A stretch of 50,202 bases of DNA, taken from assembly GCF_944327175.1 (NCBI RefSeq), contig NZ_CALVGT010000006.1, forward strand, positions 1 to 50,202, given 5' to 3'. Shown one piece after another: positions 4,195 to 49,992 of the stretch. Under the pieces are notes generated by a model. The model searched no databases. It had not been told where the DNA came from and saw only the letters and a program-made list of their open reading frames with translations. How positions within the stretch are numbered: the first letter of the stretch is position 1; every line of letters begins with the position of its first letter. The translations under genes and the position numbers were made by a program. This DNA comes from an uncultured Lactobacillus sp. Lineage in GTDB: Bacteria; Bacillota; Bacilli; Lactobacillales; Lactobacillaceae.

Positions 4195-5815
4195 CTATTT
4201 CTTGATGTAAACAAGCTTGAAGTCGTAAGGGATGCCCAGCGGATTGTAGGACACGTTCTTGACGTAGCTTTGCACCAGCTGCGGCTTAGCCGTCTGGATC
4301 AGTGGGATAGTCGCCTGTTCATTCATCAACAGCTTTTCAGCTGCCACCAGCCGCTTCCAGCGCTGAACCGGCTTGTTGCCGTAGACGTTTTCGGCTTCAT
4401 TGAGCAGCTGGTCGTACTTGCTGCTGGCAAAGCCGCTGTTGTTGTAGCTGGAGTCCTTTTCAAAGACGTCCAGGAAGTTGATCGGGTCACCTAAGATAGC
4501 CTGCCAGTTCTTGATGGTCAGCTGGTAGTTGCCGGCACTTTGCCGGGAGATCAAGGTCGTGTATGGCAGAGTCGTCACGGTGATCTTCACCCCTGGCAGT
4601 TCGCCCAGCTTGCTTTGCAGGAATTCACCCACCTGCTTGGCAGAGTCAGTATCGCTGACCGTCAGATTGAGGTTAAGGGACTTGATGCCCAGTTCCTTGT
4701 AGCCCTTGGCCAAGTACTTCTTGGCTTCTTTCAAGTTGTAGCTGATTGCTCCCTTGACATAGGCTTCCTTGTAAAAAGCTTCCCCGGTCGTCGGATTGTT
4801 CCCCATGCCTGATGGCACGAAGCCCTTGGCCGCAACTGACCCGTCGCTCAGGACCTTGGCCAGGCTCTCTCTGTCAATAGCCAAAGACAGGGCCCGGCGG
4901 ATGTTGAAGTTGTTAAAGGCCTTGACTGCGGTTTAATTCCAGTCGCTGGATAGCGGAAGCTGGCCGGTCGTAGAAGGTGGACTTGCCCTTGTTGGCCTTG
5001 ACTTGTTCCCCGGTCAGGTAAGTTTCGTCCAGCTTGCCAGCCTGGTAGAGGTTGTAAGCAGTTGAAGAAGTTTCGCTGATGGTTTCGTTGACCTTGTCCA
5101 GCTTCACGTTCTTCTTGTCCCAGTAGTTTTGGTTCTTAACCAGGGTAAACTGCTTGTTGGACCCGGTCCACTTGGTCAGCTTGAAAGGACCGGAGGAAAT
5201 AGTGTACTTGGCCGCCGTCCCGTACTTGCTGCCGACTTTTTCAATAAACTGCTGGTTTTCCGGGAAGAAAAGCGGGAAGGCCAGCAGGAGCTTAAAGTAA
5301 GATACCGGCCGGACCAGCTTGATCTGCAGCTTGTTTTTGCTCAAGGCCTTGACGCCCAAGCTGTTTACCGACTTCTTGCCGGCATTGATGGCTTCGGCGT
5401 TTACAATTTGGTAGAAATAGAAAGCCATGGAAGACTTGGTCTTCGGGTTCAAGGTTCTTCTATAGGAGTAGACAAAGTCATTGGCCGTGATCGCCTGGCC
5501 GTTGGACCACTTGGCGTCTCGCAAGACAAAAGTATAGGTCTTGCCCCCGTCAGTAACCTTGGCGCTCTTGGCCAGGGCCAGCTGGGGCTTTTGCTTTTTG
5601 TCCAAGCGGTAGAGCCCTTCCTGGGTGTTCAAAAGAGCGTGGAAGGAAGTGGAGTCAGTCGTCAGTGACGGGTCCTGGGTTGAGATCTGGGCACCTTCGG
5701 TCCAGTTGAGGACTTGCTTGGTTTGGGACTGGGAGCTCTTTTGCTGGCCGCAGGCGGCTAAAACGAGGGCTGAGGCAGTCAAAAGACCGGCAGCGGTAAT
5801 TTTCTTCAAGGTCAT
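4195..5815 (-). pseudogene. oppA: Oligopeptide ABC transporter substrate-binding lipoprotein (OppA family), frameshifted
   Basis: Family 5 solute-binding protein that would capture peptides outside the membrane for an Opp transporter. The first 300 codons (5815-4913) begin with a lipoprotein signal peptide and lipobox LAAC, then typical family sequence including ISSGPFKLTKW. The frame then ends early at LELNRSQGL-stop. Moving one frame at about 4925-4935 restores an unbroken match: AVKAFNNFNIRRALSLAIDR and on to the normal C-terminus at 4195. The total length (1621 nt) is one more than a multiple of three, which fits loss of 2 nt (AAC ACC GCA reduced to AAC C GCA) or gain of one. No Opp permease or ATPase genes are adjacent. 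Recent mutation, strain polymorphism or sequencing error are all possible. Confidence 0.85.
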
Positions 5816-7228: not shown

Positions 7229-9454
7229 CTATTCATCCTTGTCTGAATCGTCTGTTTGTTCAGTCTTCTGACTAGAAGCGTCATTGTTGTCCTTTTCAGG
7301 ATCCTTTGACAGGTCATTTTCGCTTGGCGTCGGCAGAGAATCAGCAGGGTCTTCCTGACTTGCTGAAGCATCTAGCTCAGCGAGCTTGGCGGCGTCGGTT
7401 TCCGGCTTGACCGCGTCTTCGCTTGGCGTTGCCAGAGCTTGCTTTTCAGCAGTATCTTCTTCCGCCTTTTCCTCAGCCTTTTCTTCTGCCCGCTTCTGAG
7501 CAGCTTCCTTGGCTTCTTCATAGCTCAAGGCCTTGGCTTCAGATGGGAACTCCTCACTGGACTTTTCAGGCATCTTCCCGGTCTTGTAGAGTGAGTAGAT
7601 TTGCTTTTCATCCAGAGTTTCGTACTTCAGCAGGGCTTCAGCAATGATCCGGTGCTTTTCCCGGTTGTTTTCAACAATTTCAACCGCCTTGGCGTGGGCT
7701 TCGTCCAGGATCTTCTTGACTGCTTCGTCGATCTTGGCCGCGGTTGCTTCACTGTAAGGCTTGAAGCCGTAAGGAGTGCCTTCGCCTTCCTTTTCCAGTT
7801 CAACCATGCCCAATTCATCGGTCATCCCGTAGTTGACCACCATGCTGTGGGCGATTGCGGTGGCTTGTTCAAAGTCGTTTGAAGCCCCAGTTGACTGGTC
7901 GCCGACCACGACTTCTTCACCGGCCCGGCCACCCATCAAACCAACGATTTGCTCAAAGAGCTGCTTCTTGGTCAAGATGAACTGGTCGTCCTTCGGCAGC
8001 ATGATGTTGTAGCCGCCTGCCCGGCCACGAGGCACGATGGTCACCTTGCGGACAGTTCTTGAGTCGCTCAGAACCAGACCACAAATTGAGTGACCAGCTT
8101 CGTGGAAGGCCACGCGTTCGCGTTCCTTCTTGGAAATCATCCGGTCCTTCTTGGCTGGACCAGCGATTACCCGGTCTTCAGCTTCATCGATGTCGGCCGC
8201 GGTGATCTTGGTCCCGTTGCGGCGGGCTGCAACTAAGGCGGCTTCGTTAAGGACGTTTTCCAGGTCAGCCCCGACAAAGCCAGGAGTCTGACGGGCAACT
8301 TCCTTCAAGTCAACGTCGTCAGCCAGCGGCTTGTTCTTGGCGTGAACGCGCAGGATGGCTTCCCGGCCCTTGACGTCCGGACGGCCAACCAGTACCTTCC
8401 GGTCAAACCGGCCTGGCCGGGTTAAAGCTGGGTCAAGCACGTCAGACCGGTTGGTCGCGGCCATGACGATAACGCCTTCGTCGCCTTCGAAACCGTCCAT
8501 TTCAACCAGCAGCTGGTTCAAGGTTTGTTCACGTTCATCGTTACCGCCGCCCTGGCCATTGCCACGCTGGCGGCCGATGGCGTCGATTTCGTCGATGAAG
8601 ATGATGCTTGGCGCGTTCTTCTTGGCGTTGGTGAACAGGTCACGGACACGGCTGGCCCCGACCCCGACGAACATTTCAACGAAGTCTGAACCAGAGATGG
8701 AGAAGAAAGGCACGCCCGCTTCACCGGCTACGGCCTTGGCCAGCAAGGTCTTACCAGTACCCGGAGGCCCCTCAAGCAGGACACCGGACGGGATTCTTGC
8801 CCCCAACTTGGTGTATCTTGCCGGATTCTTCAAGAATTCAACAACTTCCACCAGTTCCTGCTTTTCTTCTTCTTCACCGGCCACGTCGTCAAAGCGGACC
8901 TTGTTCTTCTTCGGGTCCTGCGGCTTAACGTTGGAGCGGCCGAAGTTCATGATACCGCCGCCCTGACCGCGGCTGCCGCCTTGGTTCATCATCATGACCA
9001 TCAAGACGATGAAGAGGACAGTTGGCACCAGCATGATGATCGTTGAAATCCAGTTGCTGGATTGTGATTCACCCTGGGTGCTCATCTTGACGTTCTCAGA
9101 CTGGGCCAGGTCCTGGACCTTCTTGACGCTGGAGTCGTTTCCCAGCATCGTGGTTGAGAAGCCAGTCACCTTGGAGGAAGTGTTTCCGCCAAAGATGTCT
9201 GAGCTTGAGGATGACTTGGTTTGACTTGATTTGTAGCTACCAGTTACGGAGTAGACCCCGTTGGACGGCTGCACGTTAAAGTCCTTGATTTCGCCATTGC
9301 GCAGCTTTTTCACGAATTCCGAGTAACTGATGGTTTCAGTCGCGCCGGAATTGCTGCTGCCGCCAAGGGCCCAATTAATTCCCCAGAGGAGAAGCAAAAA
9401 TACGACTATGTAGAATAGACCATTGCTAAATAGTCGATTCCGATTATTTTTCAT
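7229..9454 (-). CDS. ftsH: ATP-dependent zinc metalloprotease FtsH
   Basis: Membrane-anchored AAA+ protease that degrades damaged and regulatory proteins. Two N-terminal membrane segments (about 11-30 and 134-156) flank an extracellular domain rich in Ser, Gly and Lys. Walker A is GPPGTGKT (229-236), Walker B is IIFIDEID, and the zinc site is HEAGH (451-455). The C-terminal ~100 residues are an unusually long low-complexity acidic/Glu-Lys tail, ending DDSDKDE; 741 residues is long for the family. CGGAGG precedes the ATG. It follows tilS by 70 nt with no terminator between. The hypoxanthine phosphoribosyltransferase gene that usually sits between tilS and ftsH in Firmicutes is absent here. Confidence 0.97.
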
Positions 9455-32386: not shown

Positions 32387-33277
32387 TTACTTATTTATTT
32401 CCGCTATAGCCAGGCTGATTCTGATGAAATCGCTGATGGCCAGTTGCTCAGGCCGCTGGCGCGGGTCCAGATCCAGGTCGGCCAGCAGCTTTTCCCGGTC
32501 TTCCTTATCTGGAAGCAAGGTCTTCAAGTTGTTGGCCAGGGTCTTGCGCCGCTGGGCAAAGCAGAGCTTAACCACCCGGTTGAACTGCTTGCGGTCGCCA
32601 ACGTCAGCTGGCTTTTCCAGCGGCGTTAAAACCACTACGGCTGAGTCAACCTTTGGCTGGGGCATGAAGGAAGCGTGCCCAACTTCCAAGGCTAGGTCCA
32701 CGCTCATTTGAGTCTGCACGGCAATGGACAAGGGGCCATAGGCCTTCGAGCCCGGCTGGGCAGCCAGACGCTCAGCCACTTCCTTTTGCATCATCAAGGT
32801 CAGGCTGGTAAAGTTCAGGCTGGACTCCAGCAGGTTGAAAATAATCGGCGTGGTGATGTAGTAAGGCAGGTTGGCCACAACCTTGACGGGCTTGCTTAAG
32901 TCAAAAAAGCCCGCCAGGTCAGTTGCAAAGTCCGCCTTCAAAACGTCCTTCATGATCAGCTTGAAGCGCTGGTCCAGGTCTTGGCCGTCCACCTTTTCCG
33001 GCAGTTCGTTGGCCAGGATTTCCGGCAGGCTCTGGTCGACTTCATAAGCCGCCACCTTGCCTCCGGCTAAAAGCAGCTGCTCAGTCAAAGAACCGATCCC
33101 CGGGCCGACTTCGACTACCTGGTCGCCCGGTTCAATCCCGGCTGCCCGGACGATCCCCTGGACGGCATCCAGGTCGACCAGGAAGTTCTGGCCCAGGTTC
33201 TTCTTGGCGTGCACAAAGTAACGGTTGACGATGGCCGCCGTCCTTACCGGACTAGCGATTGGAATTCTGTTAGTCAT
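32387..33277 (-). CDS. rsmA: 16S rRNA dimethyladenosine transferase
   Basis: Dimethylates the two adjacent adenines in the 3' hairpin of 16S rRNA (KsgA). 296 residues with [11 protein letters not shown], the SAM motif [15 protein letters not shown] and catalytic [10 protein letters not shown]. Its ATG lies inside the end of rnmV (8-nt overlap), with GGAGG in rnmV codons. Last gene of the metG-tatD-rnmV-rsmA operon. Confidence 0.96.
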
Positions 33278-39484: not shown

Positions 39485-39642
39485 GCTATTGACTAATCGC
39501 TCAGCTTTAACACTACGTGACGTAAGCACATGCTAGCTACCTGGAAAGTGCCTTATTTCGACAATTTCTATTTAACCCGTTGGCATCTCTGGATGTTTCT
39601 GGGCGATAGCGTGTGTTCACGTAGGAGTCTCACCTAACAGTT
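39485..39642 (-). promoter_or_regulatory. M-box (ykoK) magnesium riboswitch
   Basis: The minus strand reads GTTAGGTGAGACTCCTACGT at the 5' end, then CGCTATCGCCCAGAAACATC, GATGCCAACGGG and a 3' part GTGTTAAAGCTGAGCG. This is the conserved order of the M-box aptamer. It lies between a strong promoter and the mgtA terminator and explains the 358-nt gap without genes. Confidence 0.92.
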
Positions 39643-39673
39643 CATTTGCTCTCTTTTCAACTTTACATAGATG

Positions 39674-42181: not shown

Positions 42182-42850
42182 TTAAACGGCGATGGTCACA
42201 ACCGTCAAGACCCCGTTTAAGGCTGCCAGGTAAAGAGGCAGCCAGATGGTCTGGGTGCTGAGGTAGCTCCAGGCGAAAAGCATGCCAAAGGCAAAGTTGA
42301 AGGCAAAGATTGCCGGAGCGAACTGGAAGGTCAGGATAGCGTAAAAGATGCCCGAGCAGATTATGCCGGCGTAGGCCACGCCCCTTTTCTCAGTTCTGAA
42401 CCAGTAGTTGAACAAGAAGCCGGTGCAGAGGTACTCTTCCAGGATTGGCAAGACCACCCCATTGGCCAGCATCATGAACCAGTATAAGGAGCTGGTGGAA
42501 TGAGAGGCATAGGTCAGTTGCAGGCCTGAGGCCGGGAAGCTCTTGTAGAGCTGCAGGTAGGAAATTCCAATCCGGCCGGCGGCAACCACGAAGCTTAAGA
42601 GCAAGGTAAAGTTGAAGCTGCTCAGCCAGGGGATGTTGAAGCGTGAATCGAAGAAGCGCTGTTCACGGTTGTAGCGGTAAATGTAAAAAAGCAGGCACAT
42701 GGCCGCCAGAACTAGGAACAGGATCACGTTCCAGATGCTGATGGACGGGCTTTTGATCGCCAGGTTGTCGGCCAGGGCCGTGAAAACAAAAACTACAAAA
42801 TAGACGAGATAACGGACAAGGTTACCTTCGCGTGATCGTGGCGTATTCAT
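42182..42850 (-). CDS. CPBP-like multispanning membrane protein with degenerate catalytic motifs
   Basis: 222-residue protein with about six membrane segments. The C-terminal half resembles the CPBP (Abi, CAAX protease-like) family: LPILEEYLCTGFLFNYWF fits the EExxxR motif, but Arg is replaced by Thr143. The usual FxxxH and HxxxN histidines are also missing (FYAILTFQFAP; PLYLAALNG). Active members need those residues, so this one is probably not a protease. CPBP proteins often act in bacteriocin self-immunity, and this gene lies near the bacteriocin island but in ordinary GC-rich sequence. Function unknown. Confidence 0.65.
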   Translation of the reverse strand: MNTPRSREGNLVRYLVYFVVFVFTALADNLAIKSPSISIWNVILFLVLAAMCLLFYIYRYNREQRFFDSRFNIPWLSSFNFTLLLSFVVAAGRIGISYLQLYKSFPASGLQLTYASHSTSSLYWFMMLANGVVLPILEEYLCTGFLFNYWFRTEKRGVAYAGIICSGIFYAILTFQFAPAIFAFNFAFGMLFAWSYLSTQTIWLPLYLAALNGVLTVVTIAV

Positions 42851-43046: not shown

Positions 43047-43298
43047 TTAATCCATAATCGCACAGCTCATGGCAAAGTAGACCAGGCCCAGGCAAGAACA
43101 GAAAATAACGACTGGCCAGACAGCTTTAGCGACGTTTTTTTGCCGGATGCCACTGACAACCAGATAGATCACCAAGCCAAGCAAGGTTAAAAGGCCTAGT
43201 GCCACGATTAAGAGGTGGTGCCACAGCCAGAAAATCACACTGTTGCCGACAACAAGGAAAACACGTTCCCAAAATGGAAGGCGTGAAGCTTGGTACAT
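43047..43298 (-). CDS. Small hypothetical membrane protein
   Basis: 83 residues with two clear membrane segments (LLIVALGLLTLLGLVIYLVV; WPVVIFCSCLGLVYFAMS) and a possible third near the N-terminus (VFLVVGNSVIFWLW). A strong AAGGAGG box lies 6 nt before the ATG. I do not recognise the family. It is the first gene past the bacteriocin island and has its own strong terminator, so it is real. Small hydrophobic proteins beside bacteriocin loci are sometimes immunity factors, but there is no direct evidence for that here. Confidence 0.65.
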   Translation of the reverse strand: MYQASRLPFWERVFLVVGNSVIFWLWHHLLIVALGLLTLLGLVIYLVVSGIRQKNVAKAVWPVVIFCSCLGLVYFAMSCAIMD

Positions 43299-43417: not shown

Positions 43418-43705
43418 TTATTTCAGAACTACGCCACTAGCGCCAACCGCAGAGTAGCGGGCCAAGTCCAGTTGCAGGCTGATAACGGCCTTTGGCAGTT
43501 CGTTTTCAGCAAAGTTGGACCGCAATTGGGTATCCAGGTTAGACGCAATTGAGCGAATTGATTCTGACTTTTCAGCCTTCTTAACAGCTGCTTCAATCAG
43601 CTTGCTCAAAGCCGCGTTTGCCTTGACTGCCGGGTCATTTGCGACAGTTTCCAATTGCTTCTTAAATGCTTCTTCTGCTTCGATTTCTTTCTTGTTAAAA
43701 AACAT
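43418..43705 (-). CDS. Probable class IIa bacteriocin immunity protein
   Basis: 95-residue soluble, largely helical protein starting MFFNKKEIEAEEAFKK at the ATG 43705 (AGGTGG upstream). The stretch NDPAVKANAALSKLIEAA resembles, from memory, the N-terminal part of carnobacteriocin B2 immunity protein (DPEVKANEFLSKL). Size and predicted helix bundle also fit the EntA-immunity family, which blocks the bacteriocin-bound mannose PTS from inside the cell. It is the third gene in the bacteriocin transcription direction, separated from the structural gene by the thioredoxin-like gene; immunity genes usually directly follow the structural gene. Family assignment is inference. Confidence 0.6.
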   Translation of the reverse strand: MFFNKKEIEAEEAFKKQLETVANDPAVKANAALSKLIEAAVKKAEKSESIRSIASNLDTQLRSNFAENELPKAVISLQLDLARYSAVGASGVVLK

Positions 43706-43789
43706 CGTACAGCCACCTATAAAATGAAAAATCAAACAATATTTTTTGCTTACATTCTAGCACTGTTTGTAATTGGTGGAAAGGGAAAA

Positions 43790-44281
43790 TTATTGATTAT
43801 TTTTTAAAAAGCTATATAATTCACTAGCACTCTTTCCGCCACCAACCCAAGCATTAGCAACGTCACCATCATTAATACGCATAACTGTTGGCGTTCCGGG
43901 AATCTGCAACACATCAAAAGCATAAGAGTCGTTCTTTGAACTAGCACTTACATCAAGATAATACAGCTTATGCTTTATGAGCTTACTGAAATCCTTCAAC
44001 ACTGGTGAGTATTGTCTGCAATAATAGCACGTTGGTCTGCCGATATATAAGTATCTGTCTTTTCCATCTTTCTTAGTAAATAAATGATCTACTTTCTTCG
44101 CATTAATCTTCTTGAAGTGTTTGACGTTCAATAGATACTCGTTAACGCTGATAGTTTGTTCAGCCAAAGGAGCATCCGAAGTAGAATCACTATAATTAGT
44201 CGCAGCGTAGATAGGACTTGATGTAAAAATCAATGTGCTAAGTGCCGCGATAATGCCTAAAAATAATTTTCTTAATTTCAA
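43790..44281 (-). CDS. Secreted thioredoxin-like protein, bacteriocin accessory (PedC type)
   Basis: 163 residues with a signal peptide (residues 1-26, LFLGIIAALSTLIFTSSPIYA). A thioredoxin fold with the CxxC pair Cys85-Cys88 in GRPTCYYCRQYSP and cis-Pro in IPGTPTVM. PedC-like proteins are needed for correct disulfide pairing in four-cysteine class IIa bacteriocins such as pediocin PA-1, and the neighbouring bacteriocin has four cysteines. The start is TTG with GAGG 8 nt upstream. It follows the bacteriocin gene after an attenuating hairpin. Confidence 0.85.
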   Translation of the reverse strand: MKLRKLFLGIIAALSTLIFTSSPIYAATNYSDSTSDAPLAEQTISVNEYLLNVKHFKKINAKKVDHLFTKKDGKDRYLYIGRPTCYYCRQYSPVLKDFSKLIKHKLYYLDVSASSKNDSYAFDVLQIPGTPTVMRINDGDVANAWVGGGKSASELYSFLKNNQ

Positions 44282-44306
44282 AATATCATCCTCATTTTCA
44301 ATTTAA

Positions 44307-44332
44307 AAGGAAAGGCTAATGCCTTTCCTTTC
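44307..44332 (-). terminator. Hairpin between bacteriocin and thioredoxin-like genes
   Basis: Perfect 11-bp stem AAAGGAAAGGC / GCCTTTCCTTT with a 4-nt loop and a weak T run. It probably gives partial termination, making the bacteriocin message more abundant than the accessory gene. Confidence 0.65.
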
Positions 44333-44337
44333 GTTAA

Positions 44338-44547
44338 TTAGCAACGCCCAATAGTTGCCTTACCACCAGTTGCATATGCGGCACCCATACGATTTACGAT
44401 ACAATACCAAGCCTTGCCCCAATCAGTTCTGCAGTGGTATCTGTTGCATGAAACACCATTTCCATAGTAGTGGTACTTGCCACCGCTCTTGCTGCCGCCG
44501 ATCACATTTTTTAAATCCATTTCGGTCAACGTTTCAAATTTTTCCAT
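44338..44547 (-). CDS. Class IIa (pediocin-like) bacteriocin precursor
   Basis: 69 residues: an 18-residue double-glycine leader (MEKFETLTEMDLKNVIGG) and a 51-residue mature peptide. The mature part carries the pediocin box YYGNGVSC, four cysteines (mature positions 16, 21, 31, 51) in the pediocin PA-1 pattern, the hinge-region Asp-Trp-Gly (DWGKAWYC) and the C-terminal hairpin AAYATGGKATIGRC. It should therefore form two disulfides and bind the mannose PTS membrane components of Listeria and related bacteria. It differs from most members by the N-terminal extension SKSGGKYH and a basic loop CNRYHCR. AGGAGG lies before the ATG. Export and cleavage should be by the C39 ABC transporter next to it. 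Confidence 0.93.
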   Translation of the reverse strand: MEKFETLTEMDLKNVIGGSKSGGKYHYYGNGVSCNRYHCRTDWGKAWYCIVNRMGAAYATGGKATIGRC

Positions 44548-44577
44548 ATTTTTTACCTCCTAGCAATTAGCTTACAG

Positions 44578-44606
44578 TACATAGATTAACTGTTTTATCA
44601 CGTAAA
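44578..44606 (-). promoter_or_regulatory. Candidate bacteriocin promoter
   Basis: TTTACG (44601-44606), 17-bp spacer, TATGTA (44578-44583) on the minus strand, with a poor -10 as expected for an activated promoter. I found no convincing pair of 9-bp repeats in front of it. Confidence 0.45.
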
Positions 44607-44635
44607 TGTTGCTACCGAACCAATCTTGCTGACTA

Positions 44636-46801
44636 TCAGACTAATTCCGTAGAGGCCTTTACAAGGCTATGGTAACTTCCTTTCTTGTCAAATAGCTCTT
44701 TGCTAGATCCACTTTCAACAATTTTGCCGTGATCTAACACAAAAATTTTGTCAACTTTTTGAGCTATTTTCATCTGATGTGCGATAAAGATTATTGTTTG
44801 ATCACCTTTTATGAGATTCTCTACAACTTTTTCTTCAGTGATAGGATCCAATCCACTTGTTACCTCATCTAAAATAAGAACCTCAGCACGTGAAAGTAGC
44901 GCCCGTGCTATAGAAAGTCTTTGCTTTTGTCCTCCCGAGAGAATCGTTGCACCTTCATCAAATTTTGCTGGTAATTTTTCTACATCACCCAAAATTTCGG
45001 CTTTCTTACAAGCATCCCTAATCTCTTGTTCTGAAACATCCCGATTAACGCCCAAAAGCAAATTCTCTTTTATAGTGCCAGAAAAAAAATATGGATCTTG
45101 TGGAATATATCTAACAAAAGAACGAAGTGTTCGCTTGCTGATTCTTGCAAGATCGGCTTTCCCTAGTAGAATTTTTCCTTCAGTAGGTGAAATAAAGTTA
45201 ACCAGTAATTTGGCCAAAGTAGATTTTCCTGACCCGCTTCTGCCGACTAGCGCTATCTTCTCGCCCGTATTAATCTTCAAACTGATGTCTTCCAATATTT
45301 TGTGGCTAAAATCATACTGGTAATCGACATTTTTTAAAGTGAATTCTCCTTGAAGCACAGCTGTATCGACATATTTCTCCTCACTAAGAGCAAACTCACT
45401 TGGAATAACCATAACCTCATTTAAACGTTTCTGAGACACTCCAGCGGCTTGCAAAGAAGGCTGCAAATTGACTATGTTTTGTAAAGGGTCTATGAAATAT
45501 GAAAGAAGTGAATTATATGTTATCAATTGCCCTATCGTCATTTCTTTGTCAATAATCATTTTCGACCCAACAACCAATACTACAATACTTAAAAATAGGC
45601 GAAGGAAGCTCTTTATTGCACTTTGAATGGCTTCTGCTTTAACATAATCCAAAGACTTACTAAGATAATCTTGAAATTGTGCTTCTATTCTCTTATACTG
45701 CCTCCCCTCGCCTGTCACCGACTTGATCGTAACTATCCCTCGTAGCGCCTCAATAATCATTGAATTGAGCTTTGAATTACTCTCCATCTGTTCATTATCA
45801 AGTGTTCTAAACTTCGCTGTAAACGCCAAAATTGTGATTGCGAATAACGGCGTAAGTAATAAAACTATCTTGTATAAAGACGGGCTTTGTATGCTTAAAG
45901 TTACCCCCATTGTTATTACAGTCGCAACATCTATGCACAAAGATACTGCAACATTTGCTAGCGCATCTGTTATATGGTTAACATCCGAAAATCTAGAGGT
46001 TATCTCACCGATCTTTCGAGTTTCAAAAAAGTTGACAGGTAATTCAAACACATGATTGAGATATTGCAAACTAATCTTTTTAATAAGGTGCTGTCCTAAT
46101 ATATTCACCAAAATATCTTGAAAATAGCCTAAAACAGAGTTAACAGCGTATGCTATGCAAAGTCCTACAGCTATCAATTGAATCAAATGATAGTCTTGTT
46201 GCGGTATGTAGCTATCTATTAGGCCTTGAAAAAAATACGAACTACCAATATTTATTATGGTCAATAGAAAAGCAGCTAGTGTAATCGATAATACCAGCCG
46301 CTTTTGTCTGAGTACAAGCTTGAAAGTTGAAAAGATATTGGTCCGCTTCTCATGAATTGCTTTAAAATTTCGAGACTTTGAGAGAAAAATTGCTATGCCT
46401 GTCCACTCATTGAAAAATATCTCCTTTGAAATTCTCTGAATCCCAACCTTAGGATCTGGATCAGCAATAACAATATAATTCGGTAAATTCTTCAAGACAA
46501 TGCAGTAATGTAAAAGGGAATTATTCTTCACCATATGAACGATAAAAGGAAAATGTAATTCGTCAGTATCGAACATAGTTTCATCAGCCTTAACCGCATG
46601 TGTCAGTAATCCTAACTGTTCAGCGGCTCTGACTATCCCTAAAGCTGATGTTCCTTCCAAAGTCGTTTTTGCTAGATATCGTAATTTAGCTAAAGAAACT
46701 ACAGCTCCATATTTCTTTAACACCATAGCGAGACACGCAATTCCACAATCTTTTTCATCAATTTGCGGAACATAGATACGATTATATTTCATGTACATCA
46801 T
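44636..46801 (-). CDS. Bacteriocin ABC transporter with C39 peptidase domain
   Basis: 721-residue export-maturation protein. The N-terminal C39 peptidase (IDEKDCGIACLAMVL with the catalytic Cys; His in LHYCIVLKN; Asp in IADPDPK) cuts leaders after the double Gly. A six-segment membrane domain follows, then an ATPase with Walker A LVGRSGSGKSTLAKLL, signature LSGGQKQRLSIARALLS and Walker B VLILDEVTSG. The ATG at 46801 follows the response regulator stop by 3 nt. No separate accessory (HlyD-like) gene is present, as in the pediocin PedD system. It should process both the bacteriocin and the pheromone-like peptide. Confidence 0.93.
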   Translation of the reverse strand: MMYMKYNRIYVPQIDEKDCGIACLAMVLKKYGAVVSLAKLRYLAKTTLEGTSALGIVRAAEQLGLLTHAVKADETMFDTDELHFPFIVHMVKNNSLLHYCIVLKNLPNYIVIADPDPKVGIQRISKEIFFNEWTGIAIFLSKSRNFKAIHEKRTNIFSTFKLVLRQKRLVLSITLAAFLLTIINIGSSYFFQGLIDSYIPQQDYHLIQLIAVGLCIAYAVNSVLGYFQDILVNILGQHLIKKISLQYLNHVFELPVNFFETRKIGEITSRFSDVNHITDALANVAVSLCIDVATVITMGVTLSIQSPSLYKIVLLLTPLFAITILAFTAKFRTLDNEQMESNSKLNSMIIEALRGIVTIKSVTGEGRQYKRIEAQFQDYLSKSLDYVKAEAIQSAIKSFLRLFLSIVVLVVGSKMIIDKEMTIGQLITYNSLLSYFIDPLQNIVNLQPSLQAAGVSQKRLNEVMVIPSEFALSEEKYVDTAVLQGEFTLKNVDYQYDFSHKILEDISLKINTGEKIALVGRSGSGKSTLAKLLVNFISPTEGKILLGKADLARISKRTLRSFVRYIPQDPYFFSGTIKENLLLGVNRDVSEQEIRDACKKAEILGDVEKLPAKFDEGATILSGGQKQRLSIARALLSRAEVLILDEVTSGLDPITEEKVVENLIKGDQTIIFIAHQMKIAQKVDKIFVLDHGKIVESGSSKELFDKKGSYHSLVKASTELV

Positions 46802-46804
46802 AAA

Positions 46805-47605
46805 TCAGTTATTCTTTTCCTCAAGAAACTTTTCTCCAAGTGCTGCGATCTGCTTCTTCTTATCTCTCGAGAAGTAAACTATATCTCCGTTTGGAAAAGT
46901 TACGTATCTTTTAGCCAAATCTACGCTAACAACATTATCCGGATTGATTACGCATGACTGTGAAACTTTTAGCAAAAAATCATTTTCTTCATCCAGCTTA
47001 GAAATGTTGTTCTTAAATTCGCTGTCACCATTTGCCGCTACTAAATGAACTTTGTGTTGCATCGTGCTGTTTTCGATATAGTAAATTTCAGAAGCGCTGA
47101 CTCTTTGTAAATACCGGCCGCACTTGTAGCTAAAATACTGATGGTTTACGTGACTTAAAAGGTCCAGATTATCAAAGGCGGCTTGCAAAGTTTCCTTTAG
47201 CCGCTGCATAAAGGCGGCTGAGGGCAGTTCCTTGTTGATGTAATCAATTGCGCCAATTCGCCGACGATAGGTCAATGGGGCGTATTTATCATACGCTGTC
47301 ACAAAGATTATCTGCGCGTTGGGATCACGACTTCGAACAAACTCAGCCAAGTCAACGCCTGTCTTAATCCCCTTGTTCAATTCAATGTCTAAAAAATAAA
47401 GTACATTAGTCGCTTCGTTAGCTACCAAATAGCCAGCTACCTCTTCAAAACTGTTGGCAACCAATGCTAATTCCACCTTGCTCTGCCGGTAATTTTCGTT
47501 GTCATCTGACAAATTCTCGCTGGCATAAACTATCCTTTGAGCAAGGCTTTCAGCCAAAGACGCATCGTCATCACACACAATAACCTTATATTCCAACTTA
47601 CTCAT
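46805..47605 (-). CDS. LytTR-family response regulator
   Basis: 266 residues. An N-terminal receiver domain (VIVCDDD acidic pocket; phospho-acceptor Asp in VLYFLDIELN; conserved Thr/Lys region VTAYDKYAPL) and a C-terminal LytTR DNA-binding domain (IYYIENSTMQHKVHLV; NVVSVDLAKRYVTFPNG). This is the AgrA/ComE/PlnC type that binds paired 9-bp direct repeats. The ATG at 47605 overlaps the kinase stop by 8 nt. Confidence 0.92.
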   Translation of the reverse strand: MSKLEYKVIVCDDDASLAESLAQRIVYASENLSDDNENYRQSKVELALVANSFEEVAGYLVANEATNVLYFLDIELNKGIKTGVDLAEFVRSRDPNAQIIFVTAYDKYAPLTYRRRIGAIDYINKELPSAAFMQRLKETLQAAFDNLDLLSHVNHQYFSYKCGRYLQRVSASEIYYIENSTMQHKVHLVAANGDSEFKNNISKLDEENDFLLKVSQSCVINPDNVVSVDLAKRYVTFPNGDIVYFSRDKKKQIAALGEKFLEEKNN

Positions 47606-48875
47606 CCTCTTCTTGATCAATCGTTAAGTAAAGGTCAAACCAACCATCCGAAACATTGTATGAGATATCTAATTCTGAATACTTTTGCTCGATATCTTGC
47701 AAATTTGCCAACCCCAGCCCTTGATGTCCTGTTTTCGTTGTAAAACCTTTAGTCGCTAGATTTGTATGCTGTCTTTTACCCTGAACGACCTTGTTTCGGA
47801 TTTCAAACTCTAGACTATCTGTTGTTTCTTGGTAAAGCATCGCCTGTATCTCTGGATGACCATTTCTTTCTGAAAGAGATTGACTCTCCTCTAATGCATT
47901 GTCAAAGGCAATCCCAATTACTCTAACTAAATCAAGTTCATCAACATTGCCTGGTATTGACGCAATTGTCTGTCGACATTCAAAATCATAAGGAATGCCT
48001 GCTTGATATATAGCATTCAGCTTCGTGATAATGAGGCTCTTAAGAGTTTTAACTTGAATATGGTTTGTGTCTTTGTACTTAAGAAGAGCCTGGGAATCGA
48101 GATTTTCAGCAGAATAGCGTTCCAATTTATCTAATAGCTCGTGAACATTCCCTTCAGCTGCACTGACTTTCAGCGAATTCAGCAGATTCCGGTAATCGTG
48201 CCTAAATGCCCGGAGATTATCTTCACTTTGTTCAAGATAGTTGGCATATTCCTCCAGCTCTTTTTGCTTTTGCTTATTAAGTAAGCTCTCTTGTATCTTT
48301 TGATTACTATGAAACATTACTATTGCAAACAAAGCCTGTAAAACTATCACCAAACCCAGAGTAATTGCAGGGGAATAAAACCATTTATGCTCAATCACTA
48401 CAGTATTTAACGTAACCAACGAAATGTATTCATAAATCAAAGTAATCATAAATGGCTCTTGCCAGCTCATTTTTTGTAAGTACGTTCTTATTTTTTGAAC
48501 GTTTGATTTAAATAAGGCAAAAGCCATTAAATATATCGCCACAGAAATTACTAAATCCATATATGGGAACATGGCAATTATGCTTTGGGGAAACAGATTT
48601 AGTATTGTGTCAGACAAAAGATCACAAAAAAGACAAATAAGTGCTGTACTAAACACAGTCGCTAAATTTTTCTTACGGTAAGCGATTAAGAATAACGAAA
48701 CTTCTGCTATATTAGCAAAAATTGAACCCCAAACGTTAACATCGGCAAATATGCTCAAAATCAGTAAAAATACAATCAATTGTATCTTGCTAGGATATCC
48801 TGTTAAGTAATAAAAAAACAGGACATTTACGACCGCAGATAGTATCGTTGTCGCAAGACTAATATAAAATAACAT
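47598..48875 (-). CDS. Peptide-pheromone sensor histidine kinase (HPK10, AgrC/ComD type)
   Basis: 425 residues with about six N-terminal membrane segments (1-205), a coiled-coil linker and a GHKL ATPase domain. The phosphorylated His lies in FRHDYRNLLNSL; the N box is AFDNALEES, and the G box is GHQGLGLANL. Kinases of this type sense secreted peptides in bacteriocin quorum sensing. Its ATG directly follows the stop codon of the pheromone-like peptide (TAAATG). Confidence 0.92.
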   Translation of the reverse strand: MLFYISLATTILSAVVNVLFFYYLTGYPSKIQLIVFLLILSIFADVNVWGSIFANIAEVSLFLIAYRKKNLATVFSTALICLFCDLLSDTILNLFPQSIIAMFPYMDLVISVAIYLMAFALFKSNVQKIRTYLQKMSWQEPFMITLIYEYISLVTLNTVVIEHKWFYSPAITLGLVIVLQALFAIVMFHSNQKIQESLLNKQKQKELEEYANYLEQSEDNLRAFRHDYRNLLNSLKVSAAEGNVHELLDKLERYSAENLDSQALLKYKDTNHIQVKTLKSLIITKLNAIYQAGIPYDFECRQTIASIPGNVDELDLVRVIGIAFDNALEESQSLSERNGHPEIQAMLYQETTDSLEFEIRNKVVQGKRQHTNLATKGFTTKTGHQGLGLANLQDIEQKYSELDISYNVSDGWFDLYLTIDQEEDE

Positions 48876-49043
48876 TTATCTGTGGATTTTCCGGATAATG
48901 GGAAGGAAATCTTTTAAATGATCGCCCCATCTAATCCCCTTGTACAATGAAACATACGGTAAAAATCCTTCAATTCCTCCCCCAACAATCTGTTCCAATT
49001 CTTCATCTGTCAGTGTTTCAACTTTATGCAAGTTATTATCCAT
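48876..49043 (-). CDS. Double-glycine leader peptide, probable quorum-sensing pheromone
   Basis: 55 residues. The 22-residue leader MDNNLHKVETLTDEELEQIV-GG fits the C39 recognition pattern. The predicted mature peptide is 33 residues (GIEGFLPYVSLYKGIRWGDH, then 13 more to IIRKIHR), basic and amphipathic, with no Cys. The ATG at 49043 has AAAGGA upstream; an earlier in-frame ATG overlaps that box. Directly upstream of the kinase gene is where induction peptides are encoded in related systems, so a signalling role is likely; at 33 residues it is longer than the usual 19-27. A second bacteriocin is the alternative. Confidence 0.75.
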   Translation of the reverse strand: MDNNLHKVETLTDEELEQIVGGGIEGFLPYVSLYKGIRWGDHLKDFLPIIRKIHR

Positions 49044-49080
49044 AATTTTCTTTCCTTTCATGAAAAATCAACCGTTTTTA

Positions 49081-49140
49081 TCCTAACAAATTTTAACTCA
49101 AACATGAAAAAGAGACGGATTATGTCAAAATTCAGACTGA
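49081..49140 (-). promoter_or_regulatory. Paired LytTR-type direct repeats and promoter of the regulatory operon
   Basis: On the minus strand TCAGTCTGA (49132-49140) and TCCGTCTCT (49111-49119) match at 6 of 9 positions (8 of 11 counting AA before each). They are separated by 12 bp, two helical turns, as in ComE/PlnC-type sites. The second repeat ends 1 bp before a poor -35 (TTCATG, 49104-49109), 17 bp from TAGGAT (49081-49086). Confidence 0.55.
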
Positions 49141-49184
49141 TTTTTCATCCCTCTTCCACGAGCAATCCACCTTCGCAATGATGA

Positions 49185-49190: not shown

Positions 49191-49221
49191 AGTAGTAGAA
49201 AACTTGAAAGGAGCTGTTTTG

Positions 49222-49992
49222 ATGCCTGAATTAGAAAAGATAGTCGAACGCCCCTTGATCACCATCACCAACCTGATCTGGAGCTTTAACAAGGAAACCC
49301 ACCGGGTTCAGCTGCTTTTAGTCAAGCGCAAGGATGAGCCTTTCGCGGACCGCTGGGCCCTGCCGGAAACCCTCCTTCGGGAAAACGAAAGTGCCGACCA
49401 GGCTGCCGTGCGCTTGATCAAAGAAAAAATTGGCCTGGACCTGCCGGAATCTTCCACCGAGCAGCTGGCCACCTTTACCTCTCCCCACCGGACGCCCGGC
49501 GAGCGGGCCCTGGCCCTAACCTACATGACCTACCTGCCCGCCATGCCTAACCTGCGGCCAGGCTACGGGGCCAGCGATGTTGCCTGGTTCGCCTTTGAAA
49601 ACTTCGGCCACAAGTATGAGCTTTTTTCCGCTGCCAAGGACTTGACCTTTGAATTAGCGGAAAATTCTCACGACCTGGCCTTTGACCATGACGAAATCAT
49701 CGCCGTGGCCATCCAGCGCATCCGCAACAAGCTGGACTACCAGCCCAGCATCCTGCAGATTCTTGGCCCTGAATTCACTCTCCGCGAAGCCCGCGAGGTC
49801 TACGCTCCCTTCTTTCAAACCACAGTCGATGAGATCGACAACTCCAACTTCCGCAAGACCCATGGCTCCCTCTTTACCGAACTGGGCGTGCAGAAGAATT
49901 ACCACAAGAGCGGGCGGCCGCCAAAGCTCTACTGCCTTAAGGAAACGCAAAACAATATCCTCTGGGGCAAGGCTAACGATAAGCAAGGCTAG
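49222..49992 (+). CDS. NrtR-like regulator: degenerate Nudix domain plus winged helix
   Basis: 256 residues from the ATG at 49222 (AAAGGAG upstream). The N-terminal ~150 residues are Nudix-like, but the Nudix box is broken: LPETLLRENESADQAAVRLI then KEKIGL lacks the Gly-Gly and the REUxEE glutamates. The C-terminal part (FTLREAREVYAPFF, NFRKTHGSLF, SGRPPKLYCL) matches the winged helix of NrtR repressors, which bind ADP-ribose and control NAD synthesis genes. So it is probably a ligand-sensing repressor rather than a hydrolase. The targets are not in this window. GC-rich codon use marks the end of the AT-rich island. Confidence 0.75.
   Translation: MPELEKIVERPLITITNLIWSFNKETHRVQLLLVKRKDEPFADRWALPETLLRENESADQAAVRLIKEKIGLDLPESSTEQLATFTSPHRTPGERALALTYMTYLPAMPNLRPGYGASDVAWFAFENFGHKYELFSAAKDLTFELAENSHDLAFDHDEIIAVAIQRIRNKLDYQPSILQILGPEFTLREAREVYAPFFQTTVDEIDNSNFRKTHGSLFTELGVQKNYHKSGRPPKLYCLKETQNNILWGKANDKQG

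Follow-up and report, generated by a model that had tools for sequence, protein, structure and literature searches.

We describe here a locus that is very probably a three-component, pheromone-induced class IIa bacteriocin system, found in an uncultured Lactobacillus sp. The stretch of DNA analyzed (50,202 nucleotides, hereafter the window) is the whole of contig C6 in the 1.72-Mb, 66-contig genome G000, and carries seven minus-strand genes between positions 43418 and 49061 which, read in the direction of transcription, encode a GG peptide, an HPK10-type kinase, a LytTR regulator, a C39 ATP-binding cassette (ABC) exporter, a class IIa bacteriocin, a thioredoxin-like protein, and an EntA-type immunity protein. 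To judge from sequence, this would be a complete and apparently intact set of genes with which a cell makes, exports, and withstands a pediocin-like bacteriocin in response to a peptide that it secretes as a signal. This kind of locus is well known; the novel part is its modular history and a probable second pherotype, the latter seen in one relative with a poor assembly. A sequence-only reading made earlier had called a complete, quorum-sensing class IIa locus at this place, and that call stands: every frame is open, none contains an internal stop, and the family matches are clear for all but the thioredoxin-like protein, which scores below its cut-off. The features are as follows.

48876-49043, minus strand: pheromone (inducing peptide) precursor, 55 residues; GG leader of 22 and mature peptide of 33 residues
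47598-48875, minus strand: HPK10/AgrC-like histidine kinase, 425 residues; sensor half at about 48275-48875, signalling half at about 47598-48274
46805-47605, minus strand: LytTR response regulator, from the ATG at 47605; the listed open reading frame (ORF) begins at TTG 47620
44636-46801, minus strand: C39 peptidase-containing ABC exporter, 721 residues; TIGR01193 and C39 domain
44338-44547, minus strand: class IIa (pediocin-like) bacteriocin precursor, 69 residues; Bacteriocin_II; GG leader of 18 and mature peptide of 51 residues
43790-44281, minus strand: secreted thioredoxin-like protein with a CYYC motif, PedC/BrcD-like, 163 residues; PedC_BrcD score below cut-off, relatives in bacteriocin loci
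43418-43705, minus strand: EntA-type immunity protein, 95 residues; EntA_Immun; common to relatives without the bacteriocin
49113-49142, minus strand: putative LytTR-regulator box in the pheromone promoter; 9-base direct repeat with a presumed function
44617-44646, minus strand: candidate regulator half-site pair before the bacteriocin gene; weak, overlapping the end of the exporter gene
49204-49992, plus strand: Nudix/NrtR-like gene, a flank outside the locus that marks the site in relatives; family match and genus search

Evidence for the locus

Family assignments are profile scores in bits, with the curated cut-off in parentheses. The pheromone precursor, whose likely start (ATG 49043) is tighter than that of the listed ORF, as is that of the immunity protein (ATG 43705), matches the ComC leader with 22.5 bits (20.4); the kinase matches the GHKL model HATPase_c_5 with 44.0 bits (22), its His box FRHDYRN and its N and G boxes being visible in the alignment; and the regulator matches LytTR with 47.6 bits (22.6). 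As these three genes are adjacent, they form a three-component set. The exporter scores 867.6 bits (523.85) with the TIGR01193 peptide cleavage/export ABC model and 129.8 bits (22) with Peptidase_C39, the bacteriocin precursor 43.1 bits (24.5) with Bacteriocin_II (PF01721), and the immunity protein 47.4 bits (22.1) with EntA_Immun (PF08951). The bacteriocin has a YGNGV box followed by C-x4-C (YGNGVSCNRYHC), which places it in class IIa, and its mature part begins with SKSGGKYHYYGNGVSC and carries four cysteines positioned as in pediocin. Its leader visibly ends in IGG, and the leader models are borderline (ComC 18.3 bits against 20.4, bacteriocin_sig 15.3 against 15.7). The first match of the bacteriocin among solved structures is pediocin PA-1 (7vly_A, 2.2e-10); for the immunity protein, the search by sequence found no solved relative and returned only an irrelevant hit (E 0.068).

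The locus had also been described as an AT-rich island, which is correct in part. Guanine-plus-cytosine (GC) content is 0.360 in the thioredoxin-like gene, 0.448 in the bacteriocin gene, 0.364 in the ABC gene, 0.408 in the regulator gene, 0.391 and 0.318 in the signalling and sensor halves of the kinase, and 0.369 in the pheromone gene; it is 0.462 in the immunity gene and 0.480, 0.526, and 0.558 in flanking genes. With 32-45% from the thioredoxin-like gene to the pheromone, and 46-56% in the immunity gene and flanks, the immunity gene lies outside the AT-rich part. Two neighbors, a CPBP gene (42182-42850) and a gene for an 83-residue membrane protein (43047-43298), were considered as parts of the locus and rejected, their GC being flank-like and both being found in relatives without the bacteriocin. 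A plasmid origin was rejected as well: the bacteriocin gave no tblastn match at 1e-5, and the DNA from 43736 to 49140 matched 109 records, of which not one spanned 80% of the query and the best 20 covered 4-8% at 65-67% identity.

Relatives were sought in a collection with one genome per species, with 75 genomes in the genus set and 397 in the family set. The bacteriocin has a relative in one of the 74 other genus genomes, that of Lactobacillus taiwanensis DSM 21401 (L004), hence in 2/75 with its own, and 24/397 family genomes, own included, match at E 0.001, some of them weakly or with stops; a locus of this kind is uncommon in the genus. One family genome, G132, encodes a peptide identical, letter for letter, to that of the L. 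ruminis row in the table of Collins 2017 (PMC5471241), and was for this reason taken as L. ruminis. In Table 4 of that Lactobacillus-wide screen, neither L. delbrueckii nor L. taiwanensis has a class IIa entry, so that our locus is an added candidate class IIa producer in a dairy- and gut-related group for which the table has none (PMC5471241). The class IIa table likewise omits the gene at 7986-8207 of L004, from L. taiwanensis DSM 21401; in the sections of the screen considered here, this strain appears for a lantipeptide only (PMC5471241). Bulgaricin, from the producer L. bulgaricus BB18, is in print, in the part of the source drawn on here, without class or sequence (PMC7996614).

Like pediocin PA-1, the window's system has the four cysteines, the class IIa fold family, a PedC-like protein, a C39 exporter, and no HlyD-like protein. 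The pediocin operon pedABCD is not known to include a pheromone-kinase-regulator part. The mature peptide has 22/44 identities to the coagulin row of Collins 2017 (PMC5471241). Its closest bacteriocins are the L. taiwanensis peptide and ruminicin. With L. taiwanensis it shares 38/50 residues and the KYHYYGNGV start, and kinase, regulator, and exporter are there in the same order at 33-53% identity. Unlike the window, however, the 16-kb L. taiwanensis locus has no PedC-like hit, its kinase frame is split near the end, and two further GG peptides and an ORF that we take to be transposase-like lie between exporter and bacteriocin. The ruminicin of Ligilactobacillus ruminis is identical at 30/44 positions with its four cysteines in line, and the L. 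ruminis locus (L147) comprises bacteriocin, PedC-like gene, GG peptide, kinase, regulator, and C39 exporter (PMC3231920), although there the regulatory genes lie on one strand and the bacteriocin and PedC-like genes on the other, exporter and regulator are 36% and 26% identical, and the leader runs straight into KYYGNGV. Because L. ruminis has the same parts with a related bacteriocin, and ruminicin, according to the report on its expression in two heterologous hosts, has strong activity against Listeria innocua (PMC6036575), this comparison supports our interpretation.

The thioredoxin-like protein keeps its CYYC motif in 4/4 aligned relatives, has an N-terminal signal as read by eye, and adjoins a cysteine-containing bacteriocin. 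Relatives were found in 17/397 family genomes, own included, and the three best in the genus (40-50%) adjoin a kinase, a regulator, and a C39 exporter; in the bacteriocin loci of G034, G073, and G005, identity to the relatives is 39-53%. Since this set recurs, we regard the locus as a common Lactobacillus class II chassis fitted with a class IIa peptide, and its presence in those three bacteriocin loci likewise supports our interpretation. A strict-rule scan of L144-L146 for GG peptides found none; as L145 has visible GG peptides, the rule was too strict.

Proposed regulation and mechanism

From the genes, their intact frames, the family matches, and the repeat before the pheromone gene, all of which are observed, we infer induction, export, the pairing of immunity protein and bacteriocin, activity, and target as follows. 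The 55-residue precursor would be cut behind the GG leader and leave the cell through the C39 ABC exporter, and the 33-residue pheromone would activate the HPK10-type kinase, which would phosphorylate the LytTR regulator. Ahead of the pheromone operon (pheromone-kinase-regulator-exporter), the regulator would bind to the direct repeat; it would probably bind ahead of the bacteriocin gene too, raising the expression of both. The bacteriocin precursor would leave through the same exporter, the PedC/BrcD-like CxxC protein would set its two disulfides outside the cell, and the EntA-type protein would, by analogy, protect the cell at the mannose phosphotransferase system.

Direct repeats are clear before the pheromone gene and weak before the bacteriocin gene. 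The pheromone promoter contains AATCAGTCT and AATCCGTCT, a direct repeat of 9 bases with one mismatch, 21 bases apart, and a -10-like TAGGAT at 49080-49085, 57 bases past the start of the first half-site. Direct repeats, with other spacing, are described as sites of such regulators (PMC8515946). Among relatives in the genus, the repeat is conserved in G032 and partial in G001 and G011, where G001 keeps the promoter with repeat and -10, and G011 its first half-site only. In G032, the immunity gene is also preceded by the same word, with one mismatch, and by TAAGAT at the same distance, a combination of half-site and -10 found in 0.08% of 5000 shuffles.

Several findings weigh against this scheme. 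Compared to the pheromone box, the half-site pair before the bacteriocin gene agrees at 8/9 positions in the first half and 4/9 in the second; a first half-site within one mismatch arises in 1.4% of shuffles, and the rule used found no acceptable -10 at the expected distance, as for a weak promoter. These shuffle values are rough, as the pheromone promoter had been inspected before the box was derived from it, and a scan of the window picked up a single additional site with a -10, at 32420 on the minus strand and within other genes. The thioredoxin-like protein reaches 67.3 bits with PedC_BrcD (NCBIfam TIGR01295, an equivalog model), below the cut-off of 120, and for that reason is named PedC/BrcD-like only. 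An accessory ORF that we take to be HlyD-like follows the exporter in L. taiwanensis and G034 and is absent after that of the window; pediocin PA-1 is not known to need such a protein. Finally, the immunity gene is found at or near the site in G001, G011, G012, and G032, all without the bacteriocin, and because it is kept there the immunity protein may serve against other bacteriocins.

It is possible, if somewhat doubtful, that the locus is silent or decaying, with intact genes and no production under ordinary growth. In the report of Collins et al. 2018, strains with ten pediocin-like Lactobacillus genes showed no activity (PMC6036575), and a preliminary analysis of L. ruminis ATCC 27782 recorded none either (PMC3231920); the weak bacteriocin promoter and the decay of the same site in relatives point in the same direction. 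On the other hand, all frames are open, and exporter, regulator, and pheromone are present.

The site in relatives and the immunity gene

The Nudix gene is found in 9/75 genus genomes, and five of these nine share the neighborhood, G000 being counted in both. At the G032 site, where the flanks are about 90% identical, the order is Nudix gene, pheromone, kinase, regulator, and immunity gene, with exporter, bacteriocin, and thioredoxin-like gene missing. In G001, the pheromone promoter is followed at once by the immunity gene; beyond it are more small genes, a transposase-like ORF, and a second, partial copy of the immunity gene. In G011, identity ends past the first promoter half-site, and an IS605-like stretch, presumably a remnant of that type, precedes an immunity gene that is without its C-terminal part, and in G012 the CPBP gene has the immunity gene on its opposite side. 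None of these four genomes has the bacteriocin, and a regulator match above 45% was found in G032 and in none of the other three; across the genus, 31/75 genomes have regulator relatives at E 1e-30, that of G032 alone exceeding 60% identity. The bases directly before the immunity gene are common to G001 and G032; in the window, their place is taken by the end of the thioredoxin-like gene.

Other arrangements were seen in these and further loci. The cluster at 9980-11295 of L036 (G001) is immunity-like, with full and partial EntA-type copies, two paralogous ORFs (115 and 123 residues) between them, and an adjoining transposase-like ORF. A secreted-looking protein with a Cys-rich end, absent from the window, lies between the immunity gene and the 83-residue membrane protein in L035 (G032, 4790-5608) and L036 (G001, 7433-8089). 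A kinase-regulator-immunity set at 5128-7658 of L041 (G026) is 42-52% identical to the window proteins and has no adjoining exporter or recognized bacteriocin.

At four-fold sites, the immunity genes of G001 and the window differ at 2/41 positions and their Nudix genes at 40/101 (p 1.3e-5). Between G032 and the window, 8/89 sites differ in the regulator gene (p 0.0008) and 4/42 in the immunity gene (p 0.03), compared to 90/362 in the pooled flanks. To judge by these counts, the immunity gene, and perhaps the regulator gene, seem either to pass from species to species or to be conserved to an unusual degree.

Such behavior would fit an alternative in which the bacteriocin genes are a recent passenger and the EntA-type gene provides general, orphan immunity, the true cognate immunity being elsewhere or absent. 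This is suggested by the four relatives that have the gene at or near the site and no bacteriocin, by its GC compared to that of its neighbor (0.462 vs 0.360), by the 2/41 count in G001, as if it were travelling alone, and by L. taiwanensis, which has a different EntA-type protein (23% identical to that of the window) beside its related bacteriocin. We consider this alternative unlikely, however, as the gene follows the bacteriocin-thioredoxin pair directly, on the same strand and from the right family, and G000 holds a single EntA-type match, the protein itself (more distant immunity proteins were not sought).

The locus is thus composite, rather than one block gained in one step. The sequence-only reading had favored horizontal transfer, and a single recent transfer of the whole block from 43418 to 49140 could draw on its low GC compared to the flanks and on its absence from the nearest relative, G011; it is nevertheless very unlikely, given the relic promoter in G001, the half-site in G011, the pheromone, kinase, and regulator genes in G032, the immunity gene in all four relatives, and the flank-like GC of that gene in the window. 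Within the L. delbrueckii group, the regulatory and immunity genes appear to be older residents of this site, and the exporter, bacteriocin, and thioredoxin-like genes look like a later gain in the window's lineage. On the simplest order of events, a regulatory unit with an immunity gene would have been resident first, the window's line would have gained those three genes, and G001 and G011 would have undergone losses.

A probable second pherotype in G032

The pheromone precursors of the window and G032 are the same over their first 27 residues (leader plus GIEGF) and differ in the remainder, and their kinases are near-identical from about residue 202 and different before it. In the DNA, similarity breaks at about 48964 and again at about 48274, and between the breaks identity is 38-44% per full 100 bases, which we read as unalignable because unrelated sequence gives the same identity. 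Past the second break, DNA identity is 95.9% in the kinase signalling half and 97.9% in the regulator gene (98.2% and 98.0% as protein). As far as sequence can tell, this difference is a pherotype switch, with mature pheromone and sensor replaced and homologous flanks kept; the two look like an exchangeable pherotype cassette, of which two alleles were seen. The closest sensors elsewhere are 30% identical to that of the window (found in 2 other genomes of 397) and 33% identical to that of G032 (among the 75). Streptococcal pherotype systems co-replace signal and sensor. Our locus resembles the streptococcal blp/com pherotypes in its GG pheromone, HPK10-type kinase, LytTR-type regulator, and the possibility that the exporter is missing in part of the population (PMC5295010), and differs from them in genus, in its class IIa product, and in a sensor and mature pheromone that are unrelated in DNA between the two alleles. 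Our literature search found no report of pherotype switching at bacteriocin loci of Lactobacillus, a negative that carries little weight.

A few results temper this picture. Although tblastn at 1e-5 gave no match between the two sensors, they match weakly as protein (28%, E 5e-5), and we therefore see them as distant members of one sensor type. In the kinase signalling half, 15/80 four-fold sites differ between G032 and the window, compared to 90/362 in the flanks (p 0.31), so that recent exchange of this half is unsupported, its synonymous difference resembling that of the flanks. The p values given here are uncorrected and come from six Fisher tests with flanks pooled. The global alignment of the window and G032 is misaligned below about 46800; its upper part only was used, and the lower part was taken from a separate locus comparison. 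An assembly or contamination artefact, which the G032 genome (93% complete, 7% contaminated, 720 contigs) might suggest, is only remotely likely, since a single 10.3-kb contig has both flanks (about 90%) with pheromone, kinase, regulator, and immunity gene uninterrupted, and the leader and sensor junctions are in frame.

We tentatively propose, as a reading that may well prove right but that we would not yet call the probable one, that two modules are independently exchanged in the L. delbrueckii group, namely a pherotype cassette of mature pheromone and kinase sensor, swapped in frame within a signalling unit that is conserved elsewhere, and a production cassette of exporter, bacteriocin, and thioredoxin-like protein, which comes and goes next to an immunity gene that stays and is controlled by the signal. 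If so, G032 and lineages like it would be listeners, whose one response to a private signal is immunity. The window and G032 provide a natural test of joint change in pheromone and receptor specificity, and the graded series from the window through G032 and G001 to G011 illustrates how production can become separate from immunity.

Host and minor observations

The window had been attributed to L. delbrueckii itself, which two enzymes make doubtful. Compared to PDB entries 1j49 and 2yq4, which we take to be from L. delbrueckii subsp. bulgaricus, identities are 317/333 and 323/333 for G000, and 326/333 and 332/333 for G011; the G032 enzyme has 323/333 with 1j49. As the collection has one genome per species, these identities make G011 the better L. 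delbrueckii candidate, and the window probably comes from a sister species. A search of G000 for a 16S gene found none (the control was found in 9/14 genomes), and the class II ribonucleotide reductase, considered as a marker, is absent from G000 (match in 2/5 genomes). Elsewhere in the window, at 39485-39648, an M-box magnesium riboswitch (134.6 bits) precedes a P-type ATPase gene, an ordinary arrangement.

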